64,000 bases of DNA, from NCBI GenBank assembly GCA_031213475.1, contig JARUPZ010000021.1, positions 4,874,438 through 4,938,437 of the forward strand, read 5' to 3'. Both the position numbers and the translations under genes were made by a program. Each line of letters opens with the position of its first letter. Position 1 is the first letter of the stretch. Shown here piece after piece: positions 1-64,000 of the stretch. A model generated the notes under the pieces. The model was not told the origin of the DNA, did not search any database, and saw only the letters and a list, made by a program, of their open reading frames with translations. The stretch is from Nereocystis luetkeana (Eukaryota > Sar > Phaeophyceae > Laminariales > Laminariaceae).

Positions 1-1046
1 TTGTAGTTCTTTCAATCATTCCTGCTGGCCTAAGTTGCGGGAGATCTCGACGAAACCAAAACCGAGCGGCACCACGAGTCATGGTTCTCGCGTTCCGTCC
101 TTGACTGCTCCAACTGCCAGACTGACCCTCTGTGGGTACATAATTTGCCACCCGCGTTGCCGGCGGGTCCCACCACATCCTGATCCCATGCCAGACCAAA
201 ATCGAGGGTCCGCTACAATCTGCAAACGATGATCTCCCGAATGAGTAGTAAACTACAGCACCCTCCCATCTTCGTCTGCTGCTCCATCTCCGATTGATTC
301 GTTTTCGCTCGGACTCTAACCTACGGTGGTGACATTATACGGACGGATCGGGCACATACCGCACGTATAGCAACCGAACGACCGCGGAGTCTGTGTGGGC
401 ACGCGCGCCGAGCAAAGCTTCGCAAAGGCCGAGCGACGACGTCGGCGATGGCACCAACGCCAGCCGCAGCGCTACCTTCGGTGGCAACGGCCTTGCGTTG
501 GGAGTGCGAGGTTCAGACGGGACCAGCGGGTGGTCTACGGCGTCGTCGACAACGTCGTCGACATCATCATCATCATCGTCGTCGTCTTCATCATCATCTG
601 AGGGAGAGAAAGGGGAGGAAGAACCCGGGTTTTCTGCTGAGGGAGGAGGTATGCGGAGTACTATTACGGGGGGGGGGCATACTGTACTCAGAACCAAAGC
701 GTAGTAATCACAACCATTATGCATAGATGGTGTAAAATCATAGGGTGATACTGTACGTGCTCACTGGGTCAATCGTGGTTTCCGATGGCTATCTCCCCCC
801 CGTTACACTATCAATGTAAATAGCACTCCTCCGCAAAGATGCCGGTTGGTAGGACTCTTGCCCGTTGACGGACAGCCGTCAAGGAACCCCCGACATTAAG
901 GATAGTATACTACGTAAGCCCATGGTCGTCTTGACGGGTCAAAGCTAGACCGCCAACCGTACCGACCGATGGTGTTTGCTCCTACCGCGCCGTATCCATC
1001 TACCAGGTACGTACTTTTTCTGCGTCCGATCCTTCCGGTTCTAAAC
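1..1046. other. No gene recognised; simple CGT/ATC-rich stretch
   Basis: I see no supportable gene here. Positions 541-600 are a CGT/ATC-rich imperfect triplet run that reads as poly-Ser or poly-Asp/Glu in different frames, so the short open frames over it are low-complexity artefacts. Confidence 0.6.
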
Positions 1047-1322
1047 TGTGCACAGCTCGGACAGATCGTGACCCATCTATCTGATCTGTCTACAGTAGAT
1101 CATCTAGTTCCTCGCCTGCCATTGTGAGAGGTTGAGCAGGACCTGCACAGAACAGATCCGATCCAGGAAATATGTCCTACATCCTCCTGCAGACTGTGCG
1201 GGTCCCACCCGGCGACATGAACCGAATCATACAAGATCGGGAAGGGGTCTAACAGCCTCGAAAGATCTGCAGATAGATCGTGAACCGTGGGAATCGATTA
1301 TTTGTCCGAGGTGTGAAACTGC
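1047..1322. repeat. AGATC-rich inverted-repeat element, copy A
   Basis: About 270 bp rich in AGATC/GATCT words. The left end reads CTCGGACAGATCGTGA and the right end finishes ATTTGTCCGAGGTGTG, giving imperfect inverted ends (CTCGGAC/GTCCGAG). The interior (CTAGTTCCTCGCCTG, then GAGAGG and GCAGGA, then CCCACCCGGC) recurs at 19470-19740, 37020-37266 and 39562-39935. It is probably a non-autonomous DNA element; no transposase is visible. Confidence 0.6.
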
Positions 1323-1689
1323 TGTGTTGTTCATGTACGAAGGACTCCATCAACAACCTCAGTTGGTTGGTTTGAAAATCGTTTCTTTTTTTCACGTCGG
1401 CGGCTGATCCCTTTTGAAACCCATGTGTACCACACCGTTAAAACTAATAACCGTATACCGGATACCGTATAGCACGTGCGACAAGACAACACACACCGCC
1501 GGACGAATTTCGGAGGTATTCATACTCGACAACGGGGGGGGGCGTACTGAATACGACGAGCGGCGCGTCTACGGAATTATCTCGGCGAGATCTCCCCAAA
1601 GCCGCCATTTTTATTGTGTGCCCCCCCCCCCCTCCCCCCCCCCCTCCCCGCCCCGATTGTGGAGAAAATCGGCTGTGAAGTTCATCCCT

Positions 1690-1895
1690 GGGGGTGTGTT
1701 GTCTTATCACCCTAATGTGTTATCTTGTCACCCTGTTGTGTTATTTGATCACCCTAAGTGTGTCATATTATCACCCTATTAATAGTGTGATGCCTTGTCA
1801 TCGTAGTGTTTTTTCTTATCACCCTAGTCTGTTATCTTATCACCCTAGTGTGTTATCTTACTTCGCCATATTGTTTATTCTATCACCCTAGTGTG
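1690..1895. repeat. Minisatellite, unit about 20-22 bp
   Basis: About nine diverged tandem units of the type GTGTTATCTTATCACCCTA. It follows a C-run at 1621-1650. The same word occurs inverted at about 27290-27355 inside galE intron 1, and a partial copy lies near 42380. Confidence 0.7.
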
Positions 1896-4200
1896 ATTTA
1901 GGTAGAAGAGCGTTCTAACCGTTGTGTGGGCGTGCAGTATACGGTACCAGGTAGCTTATGCAGCGCGCGTGCCGTGCAGCTCCTTGCGCTGGCGACCTCC
2001 CAAATTAAAGTTGAAAGCGTTATCCCCTCCCCTTGTTTTGTGGTGCCGCGGTGGTTTGATACTTGTCGACGTGCGGAAAATTGCCTGCAACGTGTCTGTA
2101 GCGGCGATTACTCAAACACTCCTAACCCTCGGTAGCAACACGCTTTGCCTTCGTGCAGCTGGTGCACATAACCTCCGGACACTTTCGTCGCGTCTGCTCC
2201 TCTGAAGTTCCGGACAACAATTTGTAAGATACGCACTAACTGTGTCATGTCTGTCACATGGTTGCCCGAGAAGGAAACCAAGAAGAAGGTTCGAGCTCCG
2301 GACACCGGGGGCGAAGTTCCTCGGCCTCGTCGCAAAGCTCGTCGCGGTCGGACTCGACGAGCAGCAGCTGGGCGGCGTTGATGGAACACAACTTCCGGCT
2401 TTTGATGAACTCGGACGAAGGACGGGCGTTGCTAGAAAGAGAAGTGCAAGCTCTCAGCGCGCGCGGCCCCCGACCTGGCAGGCAACGATCTCCACGCGGT
2501 ACGTCTGCTACGACCGAACGCGAGCATCTAAGTTACACATCGCTCAAAGAAAGGTACTGCACCCCTTTCGAGCCGACTGAAGCCGCACCCACGACCGAGG
2601 CTCTACGATCGCCGACCGAGAATGATATTTAGATTGTTTTACTGGTACACAGTAGTTTTGTCGAATAGTCAGGCGAGGTGTGGTTGATAGCGTACCCACT
2701 GTTCGAAGTCGCTGGATTCTAGTTTCCCTTTCGCAAGTGGATGATACGATAGGAACAAGCGCTGCGCATTCTCAGATGGCAAGCGTAATGACACTAATGT
2801 TTTGGAATATTGCAAGAAAAAAAAACGGTAGCTGTGATATCGAGGATTTCATCGAAACTCAAAGTTGCGAGCTGCTTGAGATACTTCGAGCTATGTATGT
2901 GTCGTACGATTCTGCGTACTCTCCAAATCGGCCTACGCACACAATTTGACAACAGTTACGAATATCCTGCCGTGCGAGTTCGTACCGACAAGTTACGCTG
3001 CTGTCTTTACTACCCAACAATTTGACCTTGAAAAAATATTGTTTCGCTGTACCATCCGCTATCAACTTTACGAATTATTGTTGATGCTTTTGAGGGTAGC
3101 AAAGCAATACCGTCGCCCATGTAGAACATGCGTAGCACCTGCTCAAAGTTTGAGGAAGCGTCCGCCCCATGATGCTGATGTTGAGCGTGTTCCATCAGTC
3201 CCGGGAACGCAGGTACGATTATCTTATCTCGCCTCGTTTCGAAAATATTTCACGAGTAAGACAGATCGTGATCTGCCTGGCGTAGATCGTTCAGATCAGT
3301 GGGCATGGGGTATATATATGTATAAATAGTGGACATCTTACAGGTCATCGAGAACGCGAAAACGTGGAAACATTACATCAGGTTGAACCAGATCCGAATG
3401 GTACAAGGTGCCTAAAAACACACCCGGGCACACGCACGATAGCGTTACCACCCCCGGTAAATCACTGCTGCACCAACACATGCCGGAACAGATCATGCGC
3501 ATCCTGTAGATCAGCCCCGTGGATATTTTTTTCAGATGGTACAGACCCATTACAATAACCTGCGTGATCTGATCTGATATGTGTGGAGTGATCTGCTTTG
3601 CCCGACGCGTGAACTAACTCCGTGCTTGGAAGGTAAACGGAAGCGAATATGGAGAGCACCGTACAGGGAAGAGCGAGAGCGAGGGCTCGACGGAGACGTT
3701 GAGATGGCCTTGCTGGCTGCCGACACAGGTGAAACTACGGGACGATGGCGAAATGCCACCTTGATTTGCTCGCAATGAGAACTTAACCTTGCGACGTTCT
3801 CGTAGAAGCTACATTAATACTTACTTGAGAAAAAACGCGAGCTGTGCGATCGAGCATTTCGTTGAAATTCGTCTTTGCAAGCTGTGTGCTATTCCTCGGT
3901 CGCGGGTACTACAGCTAATTATAGTAGTTTATCACTCAGACCCCTGAAGACTTTCCGACTTGTCTCTAACACGCGACACAGCACTCAAAACGTTGGGGGA
4001 GTGAAGAAGTTTCTGCTCGACTTGAGCACCAAAAACACACGAAAAGTTATATTTTTTCACAACTGCAGCCCTAACTAACCCCGATCGCGACCGGTTGTAG
4101 AGAGCTCCCGCAACTTCTTCATTGTCACAAGATGCGCCACATCCACTGAGCTACCAGTTAGCGCTGACTGTTACAGCTGACGCGTTCTACGATGGGGGTG
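1896..4200. other. Gene-poor interval
   Basis: Apart from one weak small ORF, nothing is recognisable. AGATC-rich stretches at about 3255-3310 and 3485-3610 may be strongly diverged relatives of the AGATC element. Confidence 0.5.
2258..2632 (+). CDS. Unrecognised small ORF (124 aa), doubtful
   Basis: An ATG-initiated 124-codon frame. Residues about 10-37 are Ser/Arg/Gly-rich low complexity. They are followed by a potentially helical segment (WAALMEHNFRLLMNSDEGRA) and a polar C-terminus. I recognise no family. No introns, operon partners or conserved motifs support it. It may be an exon or remnant of a decayed gene, or chance. Confidence 0.15.
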   Translation: MVAREGNQEEGSSSGHRGRSSSASSQSSSRSDSTSSSWAALMEHNFRLLMNSDEGRALLEREVQALSARGPRPGRQRSPRGTSATTEREHLSYTSLKERYCTPFEPTEAAPTTEALRSPTENDI

Positions 4201-4204
4201 CGAG

Positions 4205-4425
4205 GACTATTTTTGCCTTGCAAGGCGGATATTTATGACTGGTGGGACTCTTATCAGCTGAAGAAAGCTGCCTGGTAGTCAATAAGGCATGCCTTACCGT
4301 TTGCATTGCGCGTTCCATCATAGGGGTGGCATTTTTCTACCTTGCAGGGTGAATATTTATGACTGAATGGGGCTTTCTCAACTGAGGAAACTAGCCAATA
4401 AGGTAAGCCTTATCGTTTTCACTAC
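4205..4425. repeat. Two adjacent copies of a ~110-bp repeat
   Basis: Units at about 4205-4315 and 4322-4425 share AATATTTATGACTG, a GGGGCTTTCTCAACTGA-like core and GCCTTA(C/T)CGTTT. A third partial copy lies at about 18890-18975 in galE intron 2. Confidence 0.6.
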
Positions 4426-4503
4426 AGACGTAGACCATGGGATTTACTCACCGCGGGTCAATTGTGCATTTTTCTTTCTAGCCGCTTTCTGGGTGAATTT
4501 CTA

Positions 4504-4633
4504 ATATTATGGGAGACCATGGTAAACAAATAGGACCAAATACATTGTTATCATAGTAAACATCGGTAAATATATACCAGGTAGATTTGTGTGTGTGCCG
4601 CAGGTCCTACTCACTATGGTTCCCCGCCATAGT
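4504..4633. mobile_element. MITE-2 copy (TA-type)
   Basis: A degenerate copy of a ~105-125 bp palindromic element. Left TIR is GGGAGACCATGGTAAACA, right TIR carries ACTATGGTTCCCC. A CCAGG+TA micro-insertion sits inside it at about 4575 relative to the copy at 39.7 kb. Confidence 0.65.
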
Positions 4634-4935
4634 GCTAATAGTACCAATAGTACTAATGACTTGCTAATAGTATAGAACTCCTCAAGCCAGAAGTCTAAGA
4701 AAATTGCAGGTGCACCCCTCACCATTTAGCATACGTCTGCTCAGGGGTCAATGAGTAGATGTTACAGTAGCTCGGTGTTTTGTGGGGGGAATCTCAAACA
4801 AAAAGGACAGCAGTCTGGAAATTGTGCGTTTTTACCCACACCCGATCTGTTCTTGGTGCTCATGCGCCGCTCTCGGCAAGGTAGCGAGCACAGCAGCAGC
4901 TGGGCGATGTCACCCTTGCCGATGCCCCCGAGCAG

Positions 4936-5054
4936 TATTGCGGGGGACCGTATCAACTAGGACCTACGGTACACACAATAACCTACGTGGTATATATTCC
5001 CTATTTTTACTATTAAAATAACAACACTTGGCCTTATTTACTATGGCCCCCCGA
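4936..5054. mobile_element. MITE-2 copy (TA-type)
   Basis: Palindromic element with TTGCGGGGGACC at the left and GGCCCCCCG at the right. Internal blocks (GGACCTACGGTACACACA, then TATTTTTACTA) match the other MITE-2 copies. Confidence 0.75.
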
Positions 5055-5168
5055 AAAAGTAGTAGCGGCGGACCTACTGCACACAGTGACACGTCTTTGC
5101 TTACGTTGGACGTCCTCCTCCAGCGTCTCGTTAATAATCGTAGCCGCAATCGCGACCGCGACCCGCTC

Positions 5169-5270
5169 TTAACCCTTTTAGCACTGCAGTCTCGTTTTGG
5201 GGACAATAGAGGATAATTTACTTGGAATTTGAGTGGTTTGTCCCCAAAACTAGAGTTCTAAAAGGGTTAA
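5169..5270. mobile_element. MITE-1 copy (TTAA-type, piggyBac-like)
   Basis: A 94-bp near-palindrome (5173-5266) beginning CCCTTTTAG and ending CTAAAAGGG, flanked on both sides by TTAA. The TTAA duplication and CCC...GGG termini are those expected of piggyBac-superfamily MITEs. Confidence 0.85.
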
Positions 5271-6235
5271 AAGCTAAACTGCTTTGTTTCCCCGCCCTCA
5301 CATTTCCTTGCTGCTCATAGGTTGTCCCACAGAACAAAACAAAAACGGATGCATCCTGTCAACCCTTTATAACCGTCGTACTGGTATGACGGCCTCGGCA
5401 AGGTTTCGAGAACGGTGGCGGCGGAACGGCAACATGGTTCTCGATGAACTTGAGCAGTTACTAGCCGTAGCGGCGGAGCTACTGTAAATAGTTGTACGTC
5501 TCTACTTACGGAGGGCGTCCTTCTTGATCGTAGCCCTAACGCCGACCGGGACCCGCTCTTGGAAGTTGAACCTCTTCGATTCCCCCCGCCACATTTTCTT
5601 GAAGCTTAATACACCGTCTCCTCGGGAAACAAGCGATGTTTTCGTTCACCTCTTTTCAACCCCTATATATATGTCGCCCTCCGCAAACTAGCGAGCACGG
5701 AAACGTCGAAATGGTGTCGTCCTTCTCGATAACTCCTCAGCGCAGCAGCGGCGACGCTAGCGATACACGCTAGCGATACATATTTACCGATCGAGGACGT
5801 GCTCCTCTAACGCCCTCATCCTTGACGGAACCCCCAGCCCCGACCAGCCCGCTCTTGGTTTACAAATTTACTTGTTTCCTGCCCCTCGTGTTTGCTCGGC
5901 GCCCTCGGCAAGGGAGCGAGCACGGCAGCAGCGGGACGGCATCATCCTTCTCGATGCACCTGAGTAGCAGTGGCGGCTCTAGCGATGCGTCTTTGCTGAC
6001 CGAGGACGTCCTCCTCCAGCGCCTGGAGCGCGTGGAGCATAGCTTCATCGCCGCGGCAGACGCCGTCTTTGATTTTCTGCGCACCTCGTTAGGTGCGACC
6101 AAAGAAAAAGAGCCGCGCCACCACGTTACAGTACGCGGGGTACTTTCGTTATCCCTCTCGGGGGACTTCAGAGGGGAAACATTGAGGACAGAAATTGACG
6201 ACTACAGCAACGATCACTGGGTGATCGAGAGATAA

Positions 6236-8536
6236 TACGAATTGGTGTCCGAGTCGTATACCAGGTACAACGCAAGGAGTTGTACGACACGGGGCGCAGC
6301 ACGACCTACCCGCACCGTTGTGCGCTGGCGACGCTCGTAGACCGTTGAAAATACCACCTTCACCGACCATTGCTTTGGTTGCCAGTTCGGAGCCCCGAAG
6401 TGGTTCAGCTGGGGTTTGTATACTGTACGTACTACTAGGCACAGAAGGGGATTCGATAAACATGCTTAAAAATCCTTATTTTTTCGTTCCTCTTCGTCTT
6501 CTTTCTGGGGAATCTTTTTAGCCAGTGACGTTGAGGCTCATGCTGCGCATTGTCGAACGGCTGACATAATTACCACACTGATATTTACAAGGGCTCCGCA
6601 TGGGTTTGGCGGGGAAGGAGACCAAATTGTTCGATATTTTCGATTGTAGCAGTAAATTCAAGTAATTAATGCCAAGAGCGGAATAATACCTTGTAGAATC
6701 TCCAATCGCCCGGCACCCATGCTTTTCGGGTGTACAAGGAAGGATTTCGAAGTGTGCGGTTTTCAGTTGTACTGCTGTACTGCTGTAGCAATAAACAAGA
6801 GTGATACCAAAGAGATGAACACACAGTTTGTAGAGTGCCTGGTACCTTAGGCCGAACAAAATCGCACAGATCACATCGTACATATAGCGGCTATGTAGTG
6901 GTAGGACCAACAAATCGAAATGATTTACGACGTCTATCGACTACGGTACCTGGCATCGACCTATTATAATAGAATATCGTTCGACATCCACCAGTCGCTA
7001 CGAATGCAGCTGGTCACTGTGTATACTATGCGTACGTACGGTAATTTGCACCTACCTGGTGGTTCAAGTCCCCTCTGTACCTACTCCCCCACCTAACATT
7101 GATTTTGCTCCATCTATCTGCTTCCCCTACCCCACCCTTGCTTCTTTGTGCATGCTCCTGTACCTTCTACGGTGTATACTCTTCTTCTTGATCCCGCTGC
7201 TTCCTGCTTATATTCTTGTATATTCTTGTATATCTTCACATGTACCATTGTTCTTCTCGTCCTTCGAACTCGACGCTTTCGCCGCCAAGCAGGTGTTACA
7301 AGGCGCGCTTCTGGGTTCCTCTGGGCAGCCCTCCACCTGGTCGCGGCGCAAGGTCGAAGGAGCTTAGCCGCCGGGTTACGGTTCCTTTCTCCCTAGACCC
7401 CTGTATCCTTCTATTTAATAGCAACGCTACAAGATCGTTTGCCACTACTGTTAATATGAATAGCAGTACTACAGCAGCATTAATAGTGGCTATCTCCGCC
7501 GCACCTGATACTCCAGTGCGAGGGTCAGAGCGGGTCGACATTCCCACGATGCCGAACGCTACGAACATAACGCTTGACCGTTAGGTGGCCGTGGGTTTAC
7601 TTCTGAAACGATACCACCAGTCGTACAGCAGTGTGAACTGTTGCGTACATCATACCTGGTACCAGGTATACCAGTAGTTGTTTTCTTTGGGGCACTACAC
7701 ATGCTGCTATGGGGTTTGAGCACCCGTAGGGTGGATACACACCTGAAGACAGGCTCATATTACAGTGTAGCAAGGTGTTTTAATACGTAGTAGAATTTAT
7801 TGAAACCCGCAACAAAAGCTGTATCTTGTTCAAGTGTAAAACAATATTTCAGCGATCAGTTTGTTGACCATGAAATAGAAGTACCCAGTCTTCTGCCTCC
7901 CCCTGCACGAACAAGCCTACAACGAAATATTTATTTTGACAGTCGAGCTGGCGCGACCCCAGGATGTGCACGTAGCCTCCTCGCGATCCAAAAATGTGAC
8001 GATGATGTAGCGACCCCAGAAATGATGCTCGCCCAGTCCCAAAACCGCCGATGATCAAGAAGCGATGATCCGGCGTACTACTACTGTAAGCGATAAGGAC
8101 GCTGTGTTCCAACAACATCAGAAGCCTTGTCCCGTGACAGCCCAAAAAAACGATGATGATGTTCAGCGACCCCAAAAGCGATGTTCCGGAAGTCTTAGAC
8201 GACTGATGGATGTGATGCGGCGGTTCCAGAACACGTTCTCCCCCGGCAATCCCAAGCGGCCCGATCCTGGAAGATTCGTCGGCGACACCACGTTGCTGGC
8301 GCGCGACTCCGGAAGCCCCGGCAGCCCCGTCGAACTGTGCTATACTCGTACGTCCCACGTTGTCTTTCTGGCAATCCAAGCGCTCATGATGCAGCGATGC
8401 CGCGAAACGTCTTTCCGGCGACCTCGCGTTGAGGCGACCCCTGGTCTTCATGGTACACCCTTGCGGTTTTGTCGAATTGTGATGCTAAATGCTGCGTGGT
8501 GTCACGAGCTGGAATTTGAAGCCTCCGATGAGGTGA
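6236..8536. other. Gene-poor interval
   Basis: I see no gene. Positions about 6520-6570 resemble a diverged LINE-2 3' end (GAGGCTCATGCTGCGCATTG). Positions 7960-8450 are an imperfect low-complexity stretch built on words like GCGACCCCAAAA and GATGATG; open frames across it are not credible genes. Confidence 0.5.
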
Positions 8537-8819
8537 TGTTAAGATCAAGGTCGGGACATTTTGTATCCCTGGACAGGGTCGCCTATTAAGCCGCTACTCG
8601 TTGGTACTCAAGTGTGTTATTTGCTTAAAGATATAAGAGAGGAACAACAGCTTCATCATTTCTTTCGTGCACGCGGAGATTGAGAGTCAAGCTCGTGCCT
8701 CGCAGGGACAATCCCTGGTTTTCCATCAAAGATACGCCTCCCAAGTACTACAAATACGACCCCAATACCTGAACCCAGGTAATTACCGGGGTTTCAGTCT
8801 CTTTCAAAGCAGTGTGCCA
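8537..8819. repeat. LTR-like direct repeat, left copy (283 bp)
   Basis: Starts TGTTAAGATCAAGGTCGGGA and ends GTGTGCCA, giving TG...CA termini. It is about 85% similar by eye to 9511-9784. No matching target duplication, primer-binding site or polypurine tract is clear, so this may be a TRIM-like LTR pair or a segmental duplication. Confidence 0.5.
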
Positions 8820-9510: not shown

Positions 9511-9784
9511 TGTTAAGATCAAGGTCGGGACACTTTGTATCCCTGGACAGGTTTCCTTATTAAGCCGGTACTCGTTGGTACTCACGTGTGTTGTTTGCTT
9601 AGAGATAGAAGAAGAGCAGCTTGTTTCCTTTCGTGCACGCGAGCCAAGCTCGTACCTCGCTGGGAAAACCCCTGGCTTGCCATCTTAGATACCTGGTACG
9701 CCTCCCAAGTACCACAAATACGATCCCAATAATACCTGAACCCAGGTAATTACTGGGCTTTCAGCCTCATTCCAAGCAGTGCCA
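9511..9784. repeat. LTR-like direct repeat, right copy (274 bp)
   Basis: Partner of 8537-8819, with the same TGTTAAGATC start and a GTGCCA end. Relative to its partner it carries an exact 7-bp gain: GATACGCC on the left has become GATA-CCTGG-TACGCC here. Confidence 0.55.
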
Positions 9785-13392: not shown

Positions 13393-13918
13393 TCGCAGAC
13401 AGAAACTCAACGCTTTGACCGAATGCAACGCCCTGTGCCAAATAAAACGCCTGAACCGAATACAACGCCTTGACCGAATACAATGCCTTCACCGAATAAA
13501 AAACGTTTGTTTTCATTTTGAAGCCTCCACGTGAGTGCTTCGCCTGCCTTCGGCGAACGAAACGCCTGCACATGAATACAGCATACCTGGTAGTGGCCGA
13601 ATGCAATGCCTCGCTTCACCGAGTGCAATACCTGCCTTGACCAAACGTAACAACGTCATCGAATGCAACGTCTTCACCGAACGAAACGCCCCCACAATAA
13701 GGCAATACCTTTATCGAATGCAACGCCCGCCTTCACCGAATGCAACGCCGGCCTTCGCCAATGCAATGTCTTCCCCAGCGTAACACCTTCTCCGAATATA
13801 ACGCCTTCACCGAATGTAACAACCTTCACCGAATGCAACGTCTTCACCGAAGGCGGCGCATTCACCAAATGTAACGCCCGCACCGAATGCAACGCCTTCA
13901 CCAAATGCAACGCCTGGC
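13393..13918. repeat. Degenerate 18-bp minisatellite abutting the galE stop codon
   Basis: Many imperfect copies of ACCGAATGCAACGCCTTC (plus-strand sense) run right up to the galE stop codon at 13919-13921. The galE 3' UTR therefore probably consists largely of this array read as its reverse complement. The array gives several short repeat-peptide open frames that are not genes. Confidence 0.75.
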
Positions 13919-32955
<19,037 letters not shown>

Positions 32956-37266: not shown

Positions 37267-39561
37267 GTGGAAATTTTAGAGCTAATATACAGACTGTTGT
37301 AACGGCAGACAGGAGGGGTACTACATTTCGTTTCTTCGGTGACTCTTTTTGTTGGTGCGGCGCCCGTCGAAAGATGTCTATCAAGTCCCGGGTTGCGTCC
37401 GACGATCTGTTTCGAGCATGTAGTAGCGCCTCAATAGTGTTCTGCTGCACCTAATGTTATCCTGCTCCTGGTGTTGTAGTTTTCATGTCATAGCGACGGT
37501 AATACTGCCTAGAGTCGCTATTAACACTGCTATTCTACCACTTGTTGTGGTTTTCGATTTTGTTGGTAGTACGAGTAGTGGTAGTGGCGGTGGGGGCCAC
37601 TAAAGCTGTACCTCTGTTCCGCCTTGGCACCTCAAATCTGAGCGGGGGGGCCACACGCGAAGGCCTGCCTGTGTTCTCCTGGCGCACGGAGGGGGGGGAG
37701 AGTTCTCATGGGGGGGGGGGGGGCGGGGGGGGCGTTTCTCTACGCGACGCTGCCGTAGCGAGAGGATCGATGCCTCGCGATTGCAACTACAGCAGTGGCC
37801 CCTCACTTGGCGATGCTTTTTTTTTCGTTCTTCGTTTTTTGTGCGGCCCCCTGATTTTGTTGTTTTTCTTTTTGCGAGAATCCCCGTGATGTCTTGGGCG
37901 TGTTTTTTGTGGGAGTTGCCGTTGTTTTCGGTTCACCACTCCGTCCCGAAATATAACGACTTTTTTCACATTAATATTGAATACAAACGGTCCTGTTGTA
38001 TTAGATAGTGTTTTTTGGTGCTGTTCAACCCCCCTTGTTTTTTCTCGAGTCTTTTTTTTCTTGTTTGCGTTCCTTGCAGTTATTCTGCGGAGAGTGTGCA
38101 GCACGTACGTATGTACGTGTGTACGAGGTACGGGTCAATTTTGGATGCTAAAAGGTGGCTACGCTCGTTATATCTCGCCCTTTTCGCGGCCTATTTTTGA
38201 TTCGATTCTATTTTCTAGGTGCCGCACCGACCGGCATCTTGTTGAGATAACCCCAGTCAGTGGTGGTGGCGGTGGAATGTTAACCCGCGTATTCGGAGGA
38301 ACACAGCACTAATCGGAAGTTAATATCCTTCGTACAAGTAATCATCGGGGGGAGTGTGGTTTTAGAGCCCATCGTAGGTCACAATTACTACTGTCTGTGG
38401 TCCCTCGTAATGGCACTGCTGTACCCACGATATCGGGGGCAGGCGGCTTATTACAAGTATGGGAGGGTATCTACAGTGGTAAAAAGGGGTAATTATAACC
38501 CTCCTACGTGCACTGCTGTGCACGCATTTTTGGAGACAAACTACCAGGGAGTTATCGTAGGTGGTGTGGCGTCATTTTCGCGTTTTTTTTTCGTCCGCGT
38601 GGTCAGGGTGTTGTACTGCTTTTGCTGTGCGAGTAAAAAATGTGGGATCGGACATGTCGCGCCTTCGTATACTAAGAAGGATGGTCAGGTGTGGGTGTGT
38701 ATGGTGTCTTCATTAAGTGTGTCCGGGAAAATGTTGTGTCTTGTCCTTCGTTTGTTTTGAGCGGGGTGGGTGTGTGCTTAGACAAGTGGGACGGAAGGTA
38801 TTAATAGTAGTTATGCATACGAAAAGGAGCGAGGTTTTTTTTAATACGCGCGCTGCTCGCTTGCGGGGTGTTTAGAAGGTGTCAGGCACGCCTTGCGTAT
38901 CATTCGTGGCTGGCTGCTGTTGCGCGACGTATGGCTGTCGCGCCACGTATTAATATGATGCTACTGCCTGTGCAAGGTGTTTTCTCCGATAAATATGTAT
39001 ACCTGGTATATATATATATTATATATATGCCGACAAGTATAATGTTCTAGAGATACTCATACGTACGGTACCATGATACCGCTTGCTGTGGATTTTCAGC
39101 GCCGAACTGATGCCTGGATTCCCAGCGGACGACCGACGCTCTTCGCGCTCGTTCCTCTCATAAAGCGCATGTACTTTTTTTCTTTGTACGTAGGAATATG
39201 TTGCTGAATAGGAAAGATGTCCCGTCCGATTCTCGCTCCCTTTCTCTCTCACGTCGCGCGCACACATGTATGATATACGTGCACGTCTCCACGACGTCAC
39301 TGCTGTATTGCCTTATATCATTATTATTATAGTATAAGCTGTTCTCTGTCCCATGAATAATAAGGGCGGTTTGTCGACTATTAATAGCATGTAATCCAAA
39401 TAAATGGTACCTACATTTGGGAACAGAGCTGTACGGCTGTTTTTGTGATGCGCCATATATGTTTCGCAATTTCGCCCGTGACCACAGAACTACTCTATAT
39501 ATGTACATATAGAAGAATTTGCATCTCGCTCGCTAGCGTGAAGAATCCTCACCTTCGTACC
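37267..39561. other. Gene-free interval
   Basis: No gene or known element is recognised. G-runs at 37690-37730, an (AT)-rich patch at 39000-39030, and T-runs that generate hydrophobic open frames. Confidence 0.5.
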
Positions 39562-41423: not shown

Positions 41424-41532
41424 TATTACGGGGGACCATAGGTAACAGGACCTATGGTATAGATAAAAACCTATATATTTAACCATTTTTACTAAAAAAA
41501 ATTGGTCCTATTAACTATGGTCCCCCGTAATA
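41424..41532. mobile_element. MITE-2 copy, intact
   Basis: A 105-bp element (41426-41530) with TTACGGGGGACCATAG at the left and CTATGGTCCCCCGTAA at the right, flanked by TA on both sides. This is the best reference copy for the family. Confidence 0.88.
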
Positions 41533-41771: not shown

Positions 41772-41888
41772 CAGTACGGGCGACCATAGTAAATTAGGAC
41801 CTACGATACACACAAAAGCCTACCAGGTATATATTTACATATTTTCACTATCAGTATTTGGTCCTATATACTATCGTACCCTGTAATA
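41772..41888. mobile_element. MITE-2 copy with CCAGG+TA micro-insertion
   Basis: A diverged TIR pair (GTACGGGCGACCATAG / CTATCGTACCCTGTAA). Internally CCTATATATTT of the 41.4-kb copy has become CCTA-CCAGG-TATATATTT. Confidence 0.75.
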
Positions 41889-43531
41889 GTGCAATCAGAA
41901 ACCCACGATGGACCCCCCTCCCCCCAAAAATCACAGGTAGGTATCCCTAATGTTTTACACAGCAATACCAGGTTCTGAATACTACCCCTCCCCCCCTCCG
42001 TGTAGTAGCTATATAGCCGTGAAATTCAGCAAACTCGCAGCCCTGCCTACGTAATACCGTATACCAGTCTGACCGTACAAACAAGGGATTTTTAGATGTG
42101 GTAACTAGATGTCAAAATGTGCCTCGTGTTTCTGGCCAAGACCGGCGCCCGGTAACAGATGTAAGACAGCAACACCGACACACCCCGAGGCGATTTTCCA
42201 AGGGACGAATTTCTCTCGAAACTGGGGGGGGGGGGGCACACACACTCAACGAAACTGGAGGGGAAAGCTGGAAGATCTCGTGGAGGCGTTATTCCCGTGG
42301 GCACATCACCTCTGCGTTTTGCGCCCACCTTCCCGTTGCCGAAAAAAATCAGCGTGGGAATTACTCCGAGGGGGTGTGCTATCCTCATCACCCGTGTGAT
42401 ATGGTGGTATAGCAGTTGCCACAGAAAACATGTTTCTGCCTAATTATTGTTGTTGTCAGGAGTACCTTCACACCCAAAAAGCCGGTGGGTGCGGTTCTAG
42501 TAACGGTTTTTCCGCCGCAGGTTGTATCACGTGAGTTGTATGTCAGGTACGGTATGTATCCCGAGGATTGTTCCGACGCTGGTGTGTGGTTGTATGATCG
42601 TCGGGGAGTTAAACTGCGTGCATAGGCTTCCTTTTTTTTTGTTGTATTCTCCCTTATTTCAATTATTTTAAGGGGAGGGGGTGCTCATGAGTGACCGGCG
42701 TTCCAGTTCATGCTGCGCTTCGTGGGGAGGCAGAGGTAGTGGCACGAGGTATGGCTGGGGCTACCAGGTATATACGAGAAATATTGGCAGCTTCATCGCG
42801 GACGGTGTGATGCCACCGCACCGACGTTTCCCGAGGCTCTACTGTATATACTGCGGCGCACAACCGGTATTTTTTACACCACAAGATGCGTCACTGGAAC
42901 TTCAGACGTGGTGATGTTACTGATGACGCCCTCACATGAGTTTATTTTTTTCGTGAAAATCTCCGCCAGCGGTCGTAAGACAGGCTCCAAAAAACGAGAA
43001 TAAGGCGTCTGTCTCGATGGATGGAAGAAAACATGTACTGGTACACGATACGTATTCTCATAGTAGGCGCAGCACCCGCGCGCAAGGGGATTTAAAATAT
43101 ACCCCAACCACCGGGCTATCAGTGTTCACTGACGGTTTGCTTAATTAATTGTTACCAGGTAGGGTGTATCTCACAATAAAATCACAATCCGGGGTCCACC
43201 GGCCGCCATAAGCCGGGATCTCGGGTTCACTCAAGGGCTACTACACGAGACATCGGCACACTATCCCGTATCACGTGCAGGCAAATAATACCAAGGTTGA
43301 TAGATGGAACTGAAAAAAAATACAGTCGCTTCTTCCGGTCACCGTATTAAAAATACAACCAAGCAAGTTTCGGGTGCACTCCTTCAGATTTACGATGTAG
43401 TAGCAGCTGTGGTATGTAGCCGGTCTCAAGAAGATTTGCCCCCCTCGCCCGAATAAAATAGTAAATGTCGGTGTTTCACTTGAAGGTTGTCCCCGCGCCG
43501 AATCAGGTGTGCATCGGACAGTAAGTTCTGG
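41889..43531. other. Gene-free interval
   Basis: No gene recognised. Around 42260-42400 a block containing AATCAGCGTG and ACTCCGAGGG also occurs at about 27490-27540. Confidence 0.45.
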
Positions 43532-43638: not shown

Positions 43639-44724
43639 GTGCTTGAATAACATTGCTGCCATATATGCTGCCATTTGTTTCTCGCCATGTAATATACCTG
43701 GTACATTATTGCTCTCTGACAATGTATTCAGTATGACCGTAAATGTAAGGTGTAAGTCGACGATTTTTTACCATCTCAGCGTCCCTCACCTTTTACAATC
43801 AGACTGGGTCTCGTGTTCCGGTCCGATTTCAATCGCATATCCCTGACATACACGGCTGTGTGTCTCTTCTACCAATCACTGTCTCTAAACATCCCAACTC
43901 CTCTCGTCACTCTCGTCACGCAGGATAAAAACTTCTAGCCCACTCTCTCTCACCCCCTCTCTAAAGGGATGCGTGGTCAAATATCAAATGACTATAAGGC
44001 AAGCAACGAATGAGTACCCCCCCCCTCCCGTCTTATCACCCCTGTCCTATCCGGCATGGTGTTACAAATAGCCTCCTTGACAACGATTTAGGATATACCT
44101 TCACGGTTCTCGGGGCTACAAAGAATTTTCGATGGTGGGGTCAAGGCAGGGGCATAGACCCAACCCAACTCCCATCACCAACCCTAACCCTCCCTGCACT
44201 AACTGTGAGTGATAAAATTCCCGGAAAATTCAATATGTGCCGATGGAAGATGTATTGTATTACAGCAAATCGTTGTCGAGTGTACTGGAGTTCCTAAAAA
44301 TATGGCTTAGTTCCGGTAGTCAATTGGTCAACCTTTTACCAGCATGCCGGGAGACTACTAATGGTACTGCCTCAACAAGTGGCGTCAAAGTCAGGGCGTG
44401 TTGTTTTCTGTGAGGTCTCTGTGGGTTCGACTCTTCACCACCCTCCATAGCAGGCAGATAGAAAGAAAGGGCATGTCGAACCTGGAAACCATTGTTAGTG
44501 GTTGGTACTATACGATTAGTTTTTTTTTAATGCCCGCGGTCATGGCGTAGAGGCGTCCACCTACCCAACAACCTACACCCCTGAGTTCCTGCCTCGCTTC
44601 TTGGATCTTTGTAGGGCAGCCAGAACCTCGGACAAAAAATCTTGAATCTACTGCAGTACCTAAGAGCTTCGACGCCCAAAACGAACATTATTTTCTTTCG
44701 TCGACTGGGCGCGTCAAAAACGTT

Positions 44725-48645: not shown

Positions 48646-48771
48646 GTTTACGGGGGACCATAGTAAGTAGGACAAAATATTGTTGAAAAAAATAGCGAAA
48701 TAAATAGGTTTTTGAGTGTACCGTAGGTCCTACGTACCAGGTACCGGTACTTAATATGGTCCCTCGTAATA
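48646..48771. mobile_element. MITE-2 copy
   Basis: TTACGGGGGACCATAGTAAG at the left and TATGGTCCCTCGTAA at the right. TACCAGGTACCGGTAC interrupts the right arm. Confidence 0.78.
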
Positions 48772-48877: not shown

Positions 48878-49783
<906 letters not shown>

Positions 49784-49826
49784 ACTACTACCACTACTAC
49801 TACCACCACCACCACTACTACTACTG

Positions 49827-49860
<34 letters not shown>

Positions 49861-49916
49861 GACTACTACTACTACTACTACTACTACTAAGTAACTACTA
49901 CTACTACTATTACTAT

Positions 49917-49948
<32 letters not shown>

Positions 49949-50002
49949 ATACTACTACTACTACGACTACTACTACCACCACTACTACTACTACTACTAC
50001 TG

Positions 50003-50056
<54 letters not shown>

Positions 50057-50154
50057 TTAATACTACTACTACTACTACCACCACTAATACTACTACTACT
50101 ACTGCTACTACTACTACTACTACTGCTGCTACCACTACTATTAAATATTACTGT

Positions 50155-50245
<91 letters not shown>

Positions 50246-50272
50246 GTATTACTACTAGCACTACTACTACCC

Positions 50273-50317
<45 letters not shown>

Positions 50318-50320
50318 TAA

Positions 50321-50352
<32 letters not shown>
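49784..50352. repeat. (ACT)n microsatellite, about 570 bp
   Basis: An interrupted ACT array with CCA, TGC and ATT variants. It ends about 38 bp before the 5' truncation point of a LINE-1 copy. Confidence 0.97.
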
Positions 50353-50391
50353 GAGGTAGAAGAAATTCTTACTACTTTTACCCTCCGACAA

Positions 50392-51299
50392 TGCATCTAC
50401 AAACACCAGACCAGACTACCCTCGCACCACCGCTCGTCATCGAAGCAGCACGCCAGAGGTATAAATAGACGACCCGGTTCTTATACCTGGGCGGCATTAT
50501 CCACGAAAACGCTGACCTCTCCCTCGAAATCGACCGACGGATCCGCCTCATGCGAGCATGCCTCAAACGGTTCGGCCCGGAGTTGTAAAAAAATATGATA
50601 GGACGACCGCCCCCCTTAGCCTAAAAGTCCGAATGCTGAAGGCCGAGGTGATTGAGACCCTGCTGTACGGGTGTGTGACGGTGGACCCTCAGAGCGGAAC
50701 GCTTCTCCAAACTTCGAACGGCGCACCACCAAGTCCTGTTGTTGCGAGTCATTCCCTTCCAGCGCCGACTTCGAACTGACCGTGCCACCCTCTCGTACGC
50801 GAAGGCCCTCAAGATGACACGTTGTGAGAGCATCGAAACGACCATTCGTAAACGGCGGCTCTTCTTTGCGGGGGGCGTGGCACGGCAAAGCAAGGAGCGA
50901 TTACCCAGTCGGGTAATGTTCGGGGCGATAACCGGTGGGGAGAACCCGAGACCAGGCGGACAGTGTAAGACTTGGCATAGATGCATAGTCGAAGACCTTA
51001 GGGAATTCCGAGCCACCGAAGGGGCAACGGAAGTTGCCCCCTCCTTGGTGTTTGGAGTTGACACCGCGTTGTGGTCCACTGCAGCCAAAAAGCCGAGGAA
51101 GTGGTACCGGGGGATCCTTGAAGCAGCCGAACGGTTCATGGTGAGGTGGCACGAGGCTGAGGCTGAGATGAGTAGGCTGCGCCGCGCATCCACCGTGGAT
51201 GGGGTCCTAGGGAATGGGGGGGGGGGGGGGGGGCAACAGGAGCAGTGGCAGAAAACCCGACCAAGGGAATGCGGAGAGGGGGGGGGACAGGAGGGGTAG
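50392..51299 (+). pseudogene. LINE-1 reverse transcriptase, C-terminal remnant
   Basis: The peptide matches the C-terminal ~320 residues of the RT ORF on the other strand at 61.4-63.7 kb, including [20 protein letters not shown] and [13 protein letters not shown]. The RT active site itself is missing. At least two frameshifts upstream of 50739, so it is non-functional. Confidence 0.85.
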
Positions 51300-52144
51300 A
51301 AGGGAAACTGCGGTAGACGAAAGTAGGAGGGAGATGGCAGACAGGGTAGCAAGGCACCAGGCCGACTAGGAAGCAGAATATGACCATACTACTAGTGCCA
51401 CCAACTGGTGCTGCTGGTTCGAACGTGGTCTTCCCTTGTTTTCTCTTCTTTTAGTTTTGTTTTTTTTTCTTTCTTGCACTCATTCTCCGTGATTTTTCAT
51501 TTTATTTCTCTCTCTCTCTTCCTTTTTTCGATTGATAAGCCGTACTGAAGGAGCCGTGTGGCGTGGTTGGAAGACGAACCTGCTCTGCTCGTTTCGTATT
51601 GTCTGACGCCAAGGGGCTGGGCATAGTTGACGAACGCAGGGCGGAGACGGCAGTCAGGGTAGCAAGGTACCATGCGAACTAGCAGGGAGAACCTGGCTAT
51701 ACTACTCGTACCACAATCTGCTGCAGCTACCTGGTGGGTGCTTTGTGCTTTGGTTTGCCTGTTATTTTCCCTTTTTTGTTATTTTTCCCTTGGTTCTTTG
51801 TTTTACTCTGTTTAAAAGTAGTGGTGTTTTTGTTATTTTCTTTTTTTCAGCTCGTTATTTTCAAGTGTTTGCCACATCGCCTGCGGGGGGGGGGCACGAC
51901 AGATTGTTTCTTCTATTTTATCTCTTTTTCTTTCATTGTTTTCTTTTCTCTTTCGATTTGTCTTCTTTGTTTTTGTTTTCTCTTCGATTGTTTCCTTTCG
52001 TTTCTCTATTTCATAGAATGTGTTTGTCGTGCCTGTCGTATTTAGTACGTATGATGACATGGCATTGCATTGCCCACTGCAGTGCTTACTGCATACCAGG
52101 TACGTGGCAACGTTGCATCCCTGTGGCGTCTCACATAGCTTTGT

Positions 52145-53599: not shown

Positions 53600-54920
<1,321 letters not shown>

Positions 54921-59397: not shown

Positions 59398-59712
59398 ATG
59401 TGTGTGTTCTTCACATTAAACCGTGTTTTTTCTATGTGCCCGTCGACATCCAGCACAAACAGTGTCCGTGCCGATTCTTCAATTCTAGAAGAGATACAAG
59501 TTCTGTGGTCACAAAGCTACGCCACAGAGACATTACGTTGCCACGTACCTGGTATGCAGTAAGCACAGCAGTGGGCAATGCAATGCCATGTCATCATCCT
59601 AGATACGACTGGCGCGACATGCACAATCTATGAAATAGAGCAACGAAAGGAAACAATCAAATAGAACACAAAAACAAAGAAGACAAATCGAAAGAGAAAA
59701 AGAAAAAAAAGT
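59398..59712 (-). mobile_element. 5'-truncated LINE-1 3' UTR copy
   Basis: Minus orientation. Contains GTGAAGAACACACACA at its 3' end (plus 59398) and runs back to the T/C-rich block. It carries the CCTGG+TA gain at 59549. Confidence 0.78.
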
Positions 59713-59782: not shown

Positions 59783-59825
<43 letters not shown>

Positions 59826-59848: not shown

Positions 59849-59859
59849 TTGTTTTTGTT

Positions 59860-60053: not shown

Positions 60054-60074
60054 ATATGTATACCTGGTATGCTT

Positions 60075-60276: not shown

Positions 60277-60617
60277 CGGGGGGGGGCACGACAGATTGTT
60301 TCTCCTAGATTTTGCTTTCATTTTTCTTCTTTTTCTCTTTCGATTTGTCCACCTTGTTTTTGTTTTCTCTTTGATTGTTTCTTTCCGTTTCACTATTTCG
60401 TAGATTGCGTATGTCGTGCCTGTCGTATCTAGTATGATGACATGGCTTTGCATTGCCCACTGCAGTGCTTACTGCACACGTGGCAACGTAGTATCTCTGT
60501 GGCGTAGCTTTGTGACCACAGAACTTGTATCTCTTCTAGGATTGAAGAATCGGCACGGACACTGGTTGTGCTGGATGTCGACGGGTAGAAAGAACGGCTT
60601 AATGTGAAGAACACACA
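60277..60617 (+). mobile_element. 5'-truncated LINE-1 copy nested inside another LINE-1
   Basis: A plus-oriented copy starting in the G-run/GCACGACAG block and ending GTGAAGAACACACA. It is flanked by CACAGAG at 60270-60276 and 60618-60624. Removing it restores the normal 3' UTR order of the minus-strand element. Confidence 0.88.
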
Positions 60618-61383
60618 CACAGAGATACTACGTTGCCACGTGTGCAGTGTGCACTGCAGTGAGTGGGCAATGCAAAGCCATGTCATCATACTAGATACGA
60701 CAGGCACGACATACGCAATCTATGAAATAGTGAAACGAAAAGAAACAATCAAAGAGAAAACAAAAACAAGCTTGACAAATCGAAAGAGAAAAAGAAGAAA
60801 AATGAAAGCAAAATCTAGGAGAAACAATCTGTCGTGCCCCCCCCCCGCAGGCGAGGTGGCCAACACTTGAAAAATAACGAGCTGGAGAAAAGAAAGAAAA
60901 AAATAAAATAAGAAAAAACACCACTGCTTGTAAACAGAGTAAGACAAAGAACCAAGGGAAAAAGTAACAAGGAAAAATAACAAAGGGGAAATAACAGGCA
61001 GACCAAAGGCCAAAGCACCTTCCAGGTGGCGGCAGCAGCTTGTGGTACGAGTAGTATAGCCAGGTTCTCCCTGCTAGTTCGCCTGGTACCTTGCTACCCA
61101 GACTGCCGTCTCCGCCCTGCGTTCGTCAACTATGCCCAGCCCCTTGGCGTCAGACAACACGAAACGAGCAGAGCAGGTTCGTCTTCCAACCACGCCACAC
61201 GGCTCCTTCAGTACGGCTTATCAATCAGAAAAGGAAGAGGAAGAGAAAAAATAATATGAAAATCACGGAGAGTCAGCGCAAGAAAGAAAAAAAAACAAAA
61301 ACAAGAAGAGAAGACAAGGGAAGACCACGTTCGAACCAGCTGCACCGGTTGGTGGCACTAGTAGTATGGTCATGTTCTACTTT

Positions 61384-63708
61384 CTAGTCGACTTGGTGCC
61401 TTGCTACCCTGTCTGCCATCTCCTTCCTACTTTCGTCTACCGCCGTTTCCCTTCTACCCCTCCTGTTCCCCCCCCTCTCCGCATTCCCTCGGTCGGGCTT
61501 TCTGCCACTTCTCCTGTTGCCCCCTCCCCCCCCGTTCCCTTGGGCACCATCCACGGCGGATGCGCGGCGCAGCCTACTCATCTCAGCCTCAGCCTCGTGC
61601 CACCTCACCATGAACCGTTCGGCTGCTTCAAGGATCCCCCGGTACCACTTCCCCGCCTTTTTGGCTGCAGTGGACCACAACGCGGTCTCAACTCCAAACA
61701 CCAAGGAGGGGGCAACTTCCGTTGACCCTTCGGTGGCTCGGAACTCCCTAAGGTCTTCGACTATGCATCTATGCCAAGTCTTACACTGTCCGCCTGGTCT
61801 CGGGTTCTCCTCACCTGCCATCGCCCCGAACATTACCCGACTGGGTAATCGCTCCTTGCTTTGCCGTGCCACGCCCCCCGCAAAGAAGAGCCGCCGTTTA
61901 CGAATGGTCGTTTCGATGCTCTCGCAACGTGTCATCTTGAGGGCCTTCGCGTACGAGAGGGTGGCATGGTCAGTATGAAGTCGGCGCTGGAAGCCAATGA
62001 CTCGCAGCAGGACTTGGTGGTGAGCCGTTCGAAGCTTGGCAAAGTGTTCCGCTCTGAGGGTCCACGTCACACACCCGTACAGCAGGGTCTCAATCACCTC
62101 GGCCTTCAGCATTCGGAAATTAAGGCTAAGGGGGGCGGTCGTCCTATCATACAGCTCCGGGCCGAATCGTTTGAGGCATGCTCGCATGAGGCGGATCCGT
62201 CGGTCGATTTCGAGCGAGAGCGCAGCGTTTTCGTGGATAACGCCGCCTAGGTATAAGAACTGGGTCGTCTGCTTATGCCTCTGACCTGCCGCTTCGATGA
62301 CGAGCGGTGGTGCGAGGGTTGTCCGGTCTGGTGTTTGTAGGACCATTGTCTCAGTCTTCTTTTCCGACACCGTGAGGCCTGCTGCTTCGAAGACAGTCAC
62401 GATGACTGTCATCATTTTTGCGAGCCCTTCAGGCGACTTCGAGACAATTCCTGCATCATCGGCGTACAACATGCCCCATACAGACCTTCGCACGCACGCC
62501 AATGGCTCCTCCTTCCCTGTTCGAACTACTCCAGCTTCACTGAGTTGGACCAAATCCCTTACAATGGCTTCGTCTTGGCTGAAGCGTACCAGTACGACGT
62601 GTAACGCAGCAGCGAAGAACACGTTGAACAGTAACGGTGATAGTACACAGCCTTGCCGCAGCCCCTGCGTGACATCAAACCATTCCGAGAGCTCGCCGTC
62701 ATCAGTACGCACGCGAGCCCGCATGCCATCGTGGAAATTACGGATAATTCTCAGCATCTTGGTTGGTACGCCAAAGCGTGTGAGTACCTTCCATAACAGC
62801 TCTCGGTCGACAGAGTCGTACGCTTTCTGCAGATCGATGAAGCACACGTATAAGGGGATTTTCCTCTGTCGTCCGAGCTCTTGCAGCCGGCGCACGACGA
62901 ACAACATATCAATCGTTGATCGTGCGGGGCGGAAGCCGCACTGTTCCTCGGGGAGTAGTTCCTCGGTCTCGCAGTAGTTGCTGAGGCGGGACGCGACGAT
63001 TTTCAACAACACTTTGCCTGCGTGGGCAACAAGCGAAATCCCTCTATAGTTGTTGCAGTCAGTTCGATCCTTCTTTTTGTGAAGGACCTTGATGATCGCA
63101 TCTTTCCATTGCTGAGGGACTTCTCCTGTTAACCAAACATTGACAAGGATGTTGTGAAAGCGCTGGGCGAATGCCGGGTGGTCGATTTTTAGGAGTTCGA
63201 CCGGGAGACCATCTGGCCCGACAGCTTTCCAATTCGACATCCCCTTAAGTGCTTCTGTCATCTCGTCTATGGGTGGTTCATCTTCAAGCGACAGTTTAGG
63301 CGGTCGCGGTGGCAAGAGGTCGATGATCGTGGGATCGAGTTTCAGCGACTTCGTGTTCAAGAGTTTGTGGTAAAACCCCGCCCATCGTTCACGAATTCGC
63401 ACCTTATCCCGTAGGATCGTGCCATCCTCGTCCCTAATAATGAACTGTTCGCTCCTCGCTTTAGTCCCTTCCAATCCTACCGTACTCTTAAGGTGCTTGT
63501 AAAAGCCTCTTTGGTCGTTGTTCGCTAGGAGTCGTTCGGTTTCGGCAAGGTACGCTTCGAAGTACGCATGCAGTCCTGCGTCAATCACCTTCTGCAGGTT
63601 CGCACACGCAGATCTCAGGGTCTTCCACGCGGTTCTGTCCCGGGGGTGGGCACGCAAGAATTGTCGTGCATCCTCCCTCGCTGTCCATGCTGGCATGAAT
63701 GCGGCCAA
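61384..63708 (-). CDS. LINE-1 ORF2-like reverse transcriptase (774 codons in window frame)
   Basis: Non-LTR reverse transcriptase. An N-terminal linker (1-190) leads into RT motifs: KAVGPDGLP (161-169), NNYRGISL (219-226), FRPARST (259-265), [12 protein letters not shown] (290-301, Asp292), [15 protein letters not shown] (348-362) and YADD (415-418). The C-terminal region has [11 protein letters not shown] (605-615) and [13 protein letters not shown], typical of the post-thumb domain, and ends in a Gly/Arg-rich low-complexity tail. The in-frame coding signal continues upstream to the window edge (64000) but crosses a TAA at 63771-63769, so the full ORF is interrupted in this copy. The boundary 63708 is an open-frame limit (TTG), not a proven start; the first ATG is at 63696. 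The RT assignment is secure; the clade is not determined. Confidence 0.92.
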
Positions 63709-64000
63709 GGTTTCGGCAGGCTCACACCATCCATGTCTGCGGTGGCGACGTGCAGGGGGTGGTACCTCTTATTCGACCGCATCAATAACAGCCGTAGTGA
63801 AAATCTCAACTATACCAGACGTATTACGGGGCTGGATAGGCTGGTTGAGAGTGGAGATGACCCTGGAGACTACTCGTTCACGACACTTTCCATCGGACAT
63901 AAAAAGCTGCCTGTCGAACTCTCGGCGTTTCGTCGGTCTACGTATTTGTCTGTTGGGCGCAAAACGACCACCAAGTCGGACTTTGATACCTGGTATACAA

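Follow-up and report, generated by a model that had tools for sequence, protein, structure and literature searches.

A 7-bp insertion at TA dinucleotides throughout the genome of the brown alga Nereocystis luetkeana, probably an excision scar

Introduction

Transposons of the Tc1/mariner and pogo groups duplicate a TA target, and the footprints that they leave are short. In the excerpts of the published reports that we cite here and below, the excision footprint of Sleeping Beauty and Frog Prince is C(A/T)GTA, and Tc1/mariner breaks have 3' overhangs of 2-3 nt (PMC3878927). Osmar5 leaves fragments of 1-4 bp, and a Triticeae Stowaway scar, TACTCC...AGTA, retains 4 + 2 bases (PMC1925063). Passer, an element of the pogo superfamily, leaves 0-4 bp (PMC9976928), and the scars of Hsmar2 are non-canonical and variable (PMC3770610). 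Here we analyze the word TACCWGGTA, i.e., a 7-bp unit (CCWGG plus one copy of TA) at a TA dinucleotide, in a 64,000-nt stretch of the N. luetkeana genome (assembly GCA_031213475.1, contig JARUPZ010000021.1, positions 4,874,438 to 4,938,437; hereafter referred to as the window) and across the whole assembly.

The unit resembles the excerpted Tc1/mariner footprints in its TA duplication and in its short self-annealing palindrome with a single central A/T (PMC3878927), but it has 5 nt (CCWGG) where those have 3, it occurs at about 0.39 copies per kb genome-wide, and its parent is not seen. Five nucleotides between the TAs also lie above the 2-3 nt overhangs (PMC3878927) and the 0-4 bp of Passer (PMC9976928); since the Stowaway scar keeps 4 + 2 bases, five retained bases are not unprecedented (PMC1925063). 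With Stowaway and Osmar5 it shares TA flanks and what would be remnants of the element ends after excision; their scars vary in the excerpted report, whereas here a single symmetric form is found in enormous number (PMC1925063). The pogo-like DDE_1 elements of the same genome (loci L161, L163, and L164) offer a likeness in their TA duplication, inverted ends, and DDE_1 transposase, but their ends start with CAGTACCGG, for which the expected scar is TACWGTA. The internal eliminated sequences of ciliates are likewise bounded by TA and present in very large numbers; in N. luetkeana, by contrast, a scar is left and no eliminated element is seen. As far as we have seen, a constant, symmetric 5-base form at such density is without precedent. 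Within open-licence PubMed Central, no paper contained the words TACCTGGTA, TACCAGGTA, or TACCWGGTA, and no genome-wide field of such scars was reported in titles and abstract beginnings.

Abundance of TACCWGGTA

The excess of TACCWGGTA is real and unusually large. The window contains 35 exact copies, against a mean of 0.36 and a maximum of 2 in dinucleotide-preserving shuffles, much as a sequence-only reading of the window had estimated (about 35 against about 0.5 expected); the positions given in that reading are accurate to 0-6 bases (e.g., 13586 is 13584, and 53979 is 53985), and its three tandems sharing the middle TA are located at 7653/7660, 21078/21085, and 25114/25121. Among the 157 CCWGG sites in the window, 35 have TA at both flanks, and every other pair of flanks occurs at most five times. 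The genome-wide count against a background, which the same reading had proposed as a check, extends the excess well beyond the scale first noticed, with 182,395 copies in 465,085,209 bases (the density given above) and only 1,744 matches to the reversed-pattern control. There is one intact copy per about 150 TA dinucleotides, the TA density being taken from a 264-kb sample that consists of the window and twenty 10-kb pieces. This sample contains 95 copies, and as 35 of these fall in the window, the window is denser than average. Of all TA-N5-TA words in the sample, CCAGG is the most enriched (95 vs 2.7 expected).

Precise gain of 7 bp at TA

Comparison of repeat copies with and without the unit shows that it is gained precisely at TA, i.e., that it is an insertion. 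In the aligned repeats at 8537 and 9511, GATACGCC corresponds to GATACCTGGTACGCC, and in two copies of a miniature inverted-repeat transposable element (MITE) family, MITE-2, at 41426 and 41774, CCTATATATTT corresponds to CCTACCAGGTATATATTT, a gain of seven bases at TA in both cases; the MITE-2 copies at 39720 and 4504 align with the same gain. In the 3' region of a long interspersed nuclear element (LINE), the copies at 52094 and 59546 are filled, and gapped copies are found at 60331, 26188, 22219, 55491, 60792, and 25356. The LINE copies without insert have CA or TG where the filled copies have TA; presumably a mutation to TA preceded the insertion in the sublineage that was later filled. 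All four empty-site comparisons of the sequence-only reading thus give a gain of seven bases, with the qualification that the empty LINE sites read CA or TG, and its suggestion to align repeat families for TA and TACCWGGTA alleles is borne out by the 7-bp gain at TA in aligned copies.

More broadly, for 11 of 114 sites a repeat flank could be aligned with other parts of the sampled sequence. The resulting alignments, of which some were counted once from each side, show a 7-base gap in 36 cases, a filled site in 10, and something else in 42, this last class being a mixture of differently placed gaps, decayed copies, and poor alignments. At the single MITE-2 site, the pattern AAAACCTA-N(0-14)-TATATTT (15 fixed internal bases with a gap of 0-14 bases) has 13,547 matches in the genome (6,729 + 6,818). 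Counted by hand, the first 100 listed include 86 empty sites, six with exactly CCAGGTA added, four with CCAGG and an altered flank, and four others. As all six filled copies read CCAGG in the orientation of the element, they probably share descent from one filled MITE. MITE-2 itself is a short inverted-repeat family with TTACGGGGGACC ends, and its copies in the window include those at 41426, 41774, 39720, 43555, and 48648. The duplicated TA target characteristic of Tc1/mariner/pogo footprints is found here; the own ends of an inserted MITE or short interspersed nuclear element are absent from the insert, which is only 7 bp long.

The copies in the window are listed below (strand unassigned for all; identified by word count unless stated otherwise).

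1001..1009, TACCAGGTA, single insertion
1945..1953, TACCAGGTA, single insertion
4575..4583, TACCAGGTA within a MITE-2 copy (about 4500-4625), word count and repeat alignment
6259..6267, TACCAGGTA, single insertion
7653..7668, TACCTGGTACCAGGTA, tandem, middle TA common to both units
9690..9698, TACCTGGTA, empty counterpart in the diverged repeat 8537-8814 and in L014, repeat alignment
13584..13592, TACCTGGTA, single insertion
15984..15992, TACCTGGTA, single insertion
16746..16754, TACCAGGTA, single insertion
21078..21093, TACCTGGTACCTGGTA, tandem
23198..23206, TACCAGGTA, single insertion
23609..23617, TACCAGGTA, single insertion
24482..24500, TACCAGGTAcTACCTGGTA, two insertions, 10 bases apart
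24587..24595, TACCTGGTA, single insertion
25114..25129, TACCAGGTACCAGGTA, tandem
25317..25325, TACCTGGTA, single insertion
26440..26448, TACCTGGTA, single insertion
27589..27597, TACCAGGTA, single insertion
31026..31034, TACCTGGTA, single insertion
32647..32655, TACCAGGTA, single insertion
39000..39008, TACCTGGTA, single insertion in TA-rich surroundings
41821..41829, TACCAGGTA within a MITE-2 copy (about 41775-41888), empty copies at 41426, 39720, 43555, and 48648, repeat alignment
42762..42770, TACCAGGTA, single insertion
43153..43161, TACCAGGTA, single insertion
43695..43703, TACCTGGTA, single insertion
48735..48743, TACCAGGTA, single insertion
52094..52102, TACCAGGTA in the LINE 3' region, insert-free copies elsewhere, repeat alignment
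53985..53993, TACCAGGTA, single insertion
59546..59554, TACCTGGTA in the LINE 3' region, same site as 52094 in opposite orientation, repeat alignment
60061..60069, TACCTGGTA, single insertion
63987..63995, TACCTGGTA, single insertion

The UAP1 frame (33812-35710), which matches the UDPGP family, contains no copy, in line with the sequence-only reading. Together with two reverse-transcriptase frames it has none against 3.7 expected (Poisson p 0.025, for frames picked after the fact). The chlorophyll-binding family has 68 matches in the genome, which very likely mark a photosynthetic eukaryote. Microsatellites of the (TAC)n/(GTA)n type are very abundant, as are long runs of G, both in the window (49780-50600) and in the sample.

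Target-site preference

We compared 173 half-flanks with their own distal sequence after removal of flanks resembling the insert; microsatellite confounding was controlled by a masked background and by the distal flanks. The strongest preference is at +1 (T 0.49, C 0.30, A 0.06; p 3e-15), followed by +6 (T 0.46; p 1e-7) and +7 (A or T; p 7e-7); positions +2 to +5 and +8 are weaker (at +3, T 0.38 vs A 0.25), and from +9 outward every p is at least 0.05. T at +6 is seen on both sides of the insertion (0.50 in left halves and 0.39 in right halves, 76 sites). The preference is thus two-fold symmetric and centered on TA, as expected of a transposase-like target complex and not of slippage, which supports a transposase-like integration step. 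A symmetric, AT-leaning preference around TA is a marker of the Tc1/mariner/pogo family, and such a preference is found here. PIF/Harbinger and piggyBac, with their TWA and TTAA targets, were rejected as sources, the TA in N. luetkeana having no fixed neighboring base.

Decay and variants of the unit

Words with at most one mismatch to TACCWGGTA number 367,383 genome-wide, compared with 66,255 for the reversed-word control, and the ratio of excess one-mismatch copies to intact copies is 0.67. These values correspond to a divergence of about 7% for a single burst, or a spread from 0 to about 22% for a constant supply, and to about 343,000 or about 404,000 original insertions, the calibration being rough as its control is simply the reversed word. 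In the 264-kb sample, the flanking TA has decayed to CA (15 vs 5.4 expected), TG (18 vs 4.5), and AA (9 vs 4.0), with GA, TC, and TT close to expectation; substitutions in the core number 58 (30 expected), and 1-nt core insertions are mildly enriched (23 vs 10). No fully filled-in CCAGGCCTGG between TAs was found in this sample, and the shorter forms TA-CAG-TA (84 vs 56.6) and TA-CCG-TA (52 vs 34.3) show weak excesses. The one-mismatch copies indicate that the insertions are old and decaying, and hence inherited in the germ line.

Abutting copies and spacing

Units that share a TA number 15,917 genome-wide, compared with two for the control and 1,221 expected for random insertion at TA. Triples number 1,689, where a geometric run length predicts 1,389. 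By the middle bases of their two units, the doubles comprise 4,800 A-A, 4,739 T-T, 1,856 T-A, and (by subtraction) 4,522 A-T. A-T doubles are 2.4 times as frequent as T-A doubles, in the same direction as the T preference at +3, and like-like doubles outnumber both unlike types together by 3,161, which suggests some simple tandem duplications. Units with an extra TA between them occur 190 times, and the first 100 listed sites are only mildly clustered once the peak at 7 bp (8 of 99 gaps) is set aside.

The same tandem word occurs elsewhere, in nine stretches of viral contigs and at least 118 stretches of prokaryote contigs, some of which are heptamer microsatellites; no related eukaryote carrying it was recognized in the other collections scanned. 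Among 80 listed of the at least 118 prokaryote stretches (L043-L122), several bacterial genomes have short tandem arrays of CCWGGTA-type heptamers; for example, they are found on six listed contigs of one Acidimicrobiia bin, and one Chitinophaga assembly has six such stretches over five contigs.

Search for a parent element and transposases

We searched 276 kb, and then 322,945 bases, for TACCWGG...CCWGGTA end pairs up to 8 kb apart with matching inner ends. Among 598 pairs in the larger set, nine agree at 11 or more of their 19 inner positions. Those with the highest agreement (15 and 17 positions) are inverted copies of a LINE and were rejected as a parent, and the other seven, which agree at just 11-12, were taken for chance. 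A comparison of 117 half-sites yielded nine pairs with at least 14 of 22 inner bases in common, of which seven share their outer flanks as well and are therefore ordinary repeats, and two (14 of 22, with dissimilar flanks) were taken for chance. None of 104 families of TA-flanked inverted repeats (40-2500 bp) in the 322,945 bases starts with CCWGG, nor does any of the 60 listed out of 78 inverted-repeat families in an earlier pass over 276 kb. The element with CCWGG terminal inverted repeats that the sequence-only reading had proposed to look for was thus absent from the sequence searched, which amounts to 0.07% of the genome, so that a low-copy parent would escape; by the rule of three, a parent could still have up to some four to five thousand genomic copies.

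The pogo-like profile DDE_1 has 28 matches in the genome, 15 of them without an internal stop. A DDE transposase of a TA-inserting superfamily is therefore present, any link to the scars being hypothetical. In one pogo-like DDE_1 family, the inverted ends are about 27 bp long (TACAGTACCGGCC...), TA is duplicated, and the copies are about 90% alike; it was found at L161:1037-3224 and L163:923-3154 with both ends, and at L164 from 988 with the left end. A second DDE_1 family has the left end TACAGTGGGGGG in L025 and L027. All readable DDE_1 ends at these five loci start with CAG, for which the expected scar, TACWGTA, is barely enriched (84 vs 56.6). No inverted ends were found in the DDE_1 flanks of L162 and L165, and no inverted CCWGG end pair within 1.5 kb on each side of the DDE_1 loci L025-L028.

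Two further arrangements were observed at DDE_1 loci. Contig C2 and four small contigs share a stretch of about 5.9 kb (L029-L033) at 100% identity, which may reflect assembly redundancy; the stretch lacks TACCWGGTA, and its DDE_1 frame contains three TAG stops. In L165, two inverted 1.9-kb DDE_1-bearing copies (704-2591 and 4205-6092), 1.6 kb apart, are 99.5% alike.

Origin of the insertions

We consider it probable (roughly 60%) that the 7-bp units are the scars of a cut-and-paste transposon that targets TA and has a stagger of 5 nt, CCWGG. Such an element would insert at TA and duplicate it. On excision, the cut in one strand would lie at the element end and that in the opposite strand about 5 nt into the element, leaving 5 nt (CCAGG or CCTGG) as an overhang on each broken chromosome end. 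Between two CCAGG 3' overhangs, four of the five bases could pair around a central A:A mismatch, repair would then give CCAGG or CCTGG, and end joining of the annealed overhangs would yield TA-CCWGG-TA. If excision were fast compared with fixation, empty sites would become scars and the element would stay rare, which would resolve the presence of many scars without the element: it would be transient at any site, the scars would be permanent and neutral and would pile up, and their number would equal transposition rate times time at a possibly low element copy number. A transposase bound to an element end could also guide another insertion to the neighboring TA. The existence in this genome of pogo-like TA-inserting elements with readable inverted ends supports the scar reading, as do the counts in window and genome, the pairs of empty and filled sites, the symmetric target preference, the decay, and the top rank of CCAGG among TA-N5-TA words. 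Of the Tc1/mariner-type scar first suggested from the sequence, the precise 7-bp gain at TA and the transposase-like, symmetric target stand, and the self-annealing 5-nt overhang fits the sequence; as no parent is known, filing the scars under Tc1/mariner or pogo is unwarranted.

Several observations weigh against an origin by excision. No CCWGG-ended element was found in the 0.32 Mb searched. The Tc1-type profile DDE_3 had no match among 30 scored candidates (its controls matched in 3 of 14 genomes), and Transposase_1 had none either, a result that is uninformative as this profile matched no control genome. Those TA elements that have readable ends leave no comparable scars, going by TA-CAG-TA. 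In the excerpted reports, published scars differ from event to event (PMC1925063, PMC9976928, PMC3770610), whereas here one form dominates and 1-nt deletions in the core show no clear excess (38 vs 30.7). In the 264-kb sample, CCCTC ranks second in enrichment among TA-N5-TA words (57 vs 2.1); we attribute it to a satellite, probably, as kindred repeats are visible in L011, a satellite-like repeat with the recurring word ATACCCTC. Finally, abutting copies are 13 times more frequent than random expectation at the observed density. By hand calculation, the target preference predicts a factor of only 0.4-0.7 with insert-like flanks removed, which biases it downwards, and about 3 with such flanks kept. 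The abutting excess is thus left unexplained by a single-site target preference.

This excess slightly favors a different, parent-free origin, in which an integrase-like enzyme complex opens TA with a 2-nt stagger and adds CCWGGTA directly, sometimes repeatedly, from a template or a tiny donor, the unit itself being mobile or self-propagating through some 340,000-400,000 events. The idea, already raised as a very small self-propagating insertion when the window was first read, would account for the dominance of a single product, the near-geometric run lengths (182,395 units, 15,917 doubles, and 1,689 triples, with 1,389 predicted), the strong preference for TA adjoining an existing unit, and the lack of a parent in 0.32 Mb. 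We regard it as unlikely: the symmetric, TA-centered preference is of the kind that transposases produce, a low-copy parent would be missed in 0.07% of the genome, and we know of no enzyme that adds such a unit directly at TA. It is more improbable still that a host-tamed pogo-like DDE_1 protein removes TA-bounded elements in each generation and leaves a CCWGG scar. The unusually uniform product, the 15 of 28 DDE_1 matches without stop, and the L025-L028 flanks lacking an inverted CCWGG pair would suit such programmed elimination; against it, the scars are old and decayed and thus inherited through the germ line, the members of at least one DDE_1 family are ordinary transposons that have inverted ends and a duplicated TA, and no eliminated DNA is seen in the one assembly.

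Multiplication of a few ancestral insertions as passengers of LINEs, MITEs, and duplications is visible at the MITE-2 site, where the six exact copies found in the first 100 of the listing share one filled site and the CCAGG orientation, and at the LINE site common to two copies. Only the 11 of 114 sites mentioned above have alignable repeat flanks elsewhere in the sample, and the 206 half-flanks of 103 sites all differ within their first 14 bases, so that, judging from the sample, passenger copying explains no more than a minority of the insertions and has very little chance of being the main source. The least probable explanation is a bound regulatory or structural motif under selection in place of an insertion. 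The palindromic form of the word and its huge excess would suit such a motif, but the precise gains of seven bases in aligned repeats and the ordinary decay speak against selection, and the empty sites rule it out as the sole cause.

Implications

The number and constancy of the N. luetkeana scars, if scars they are, set them apart from published ones as far as we have seen. A parent-free origin would require a new insertion chemistry. Under an excision origin, the units would be the fossil record of several hundred thousand transpositions by a nearly vanished element, and would mean that a transposon with fast excision can mutate its host genome while its own copies do not accumulate, and is therefore overlooked by ordinary repeat annotation. 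They would also provide datable, near-neutral 7-bp phylogenetic markers and a ready source of frameshifts.

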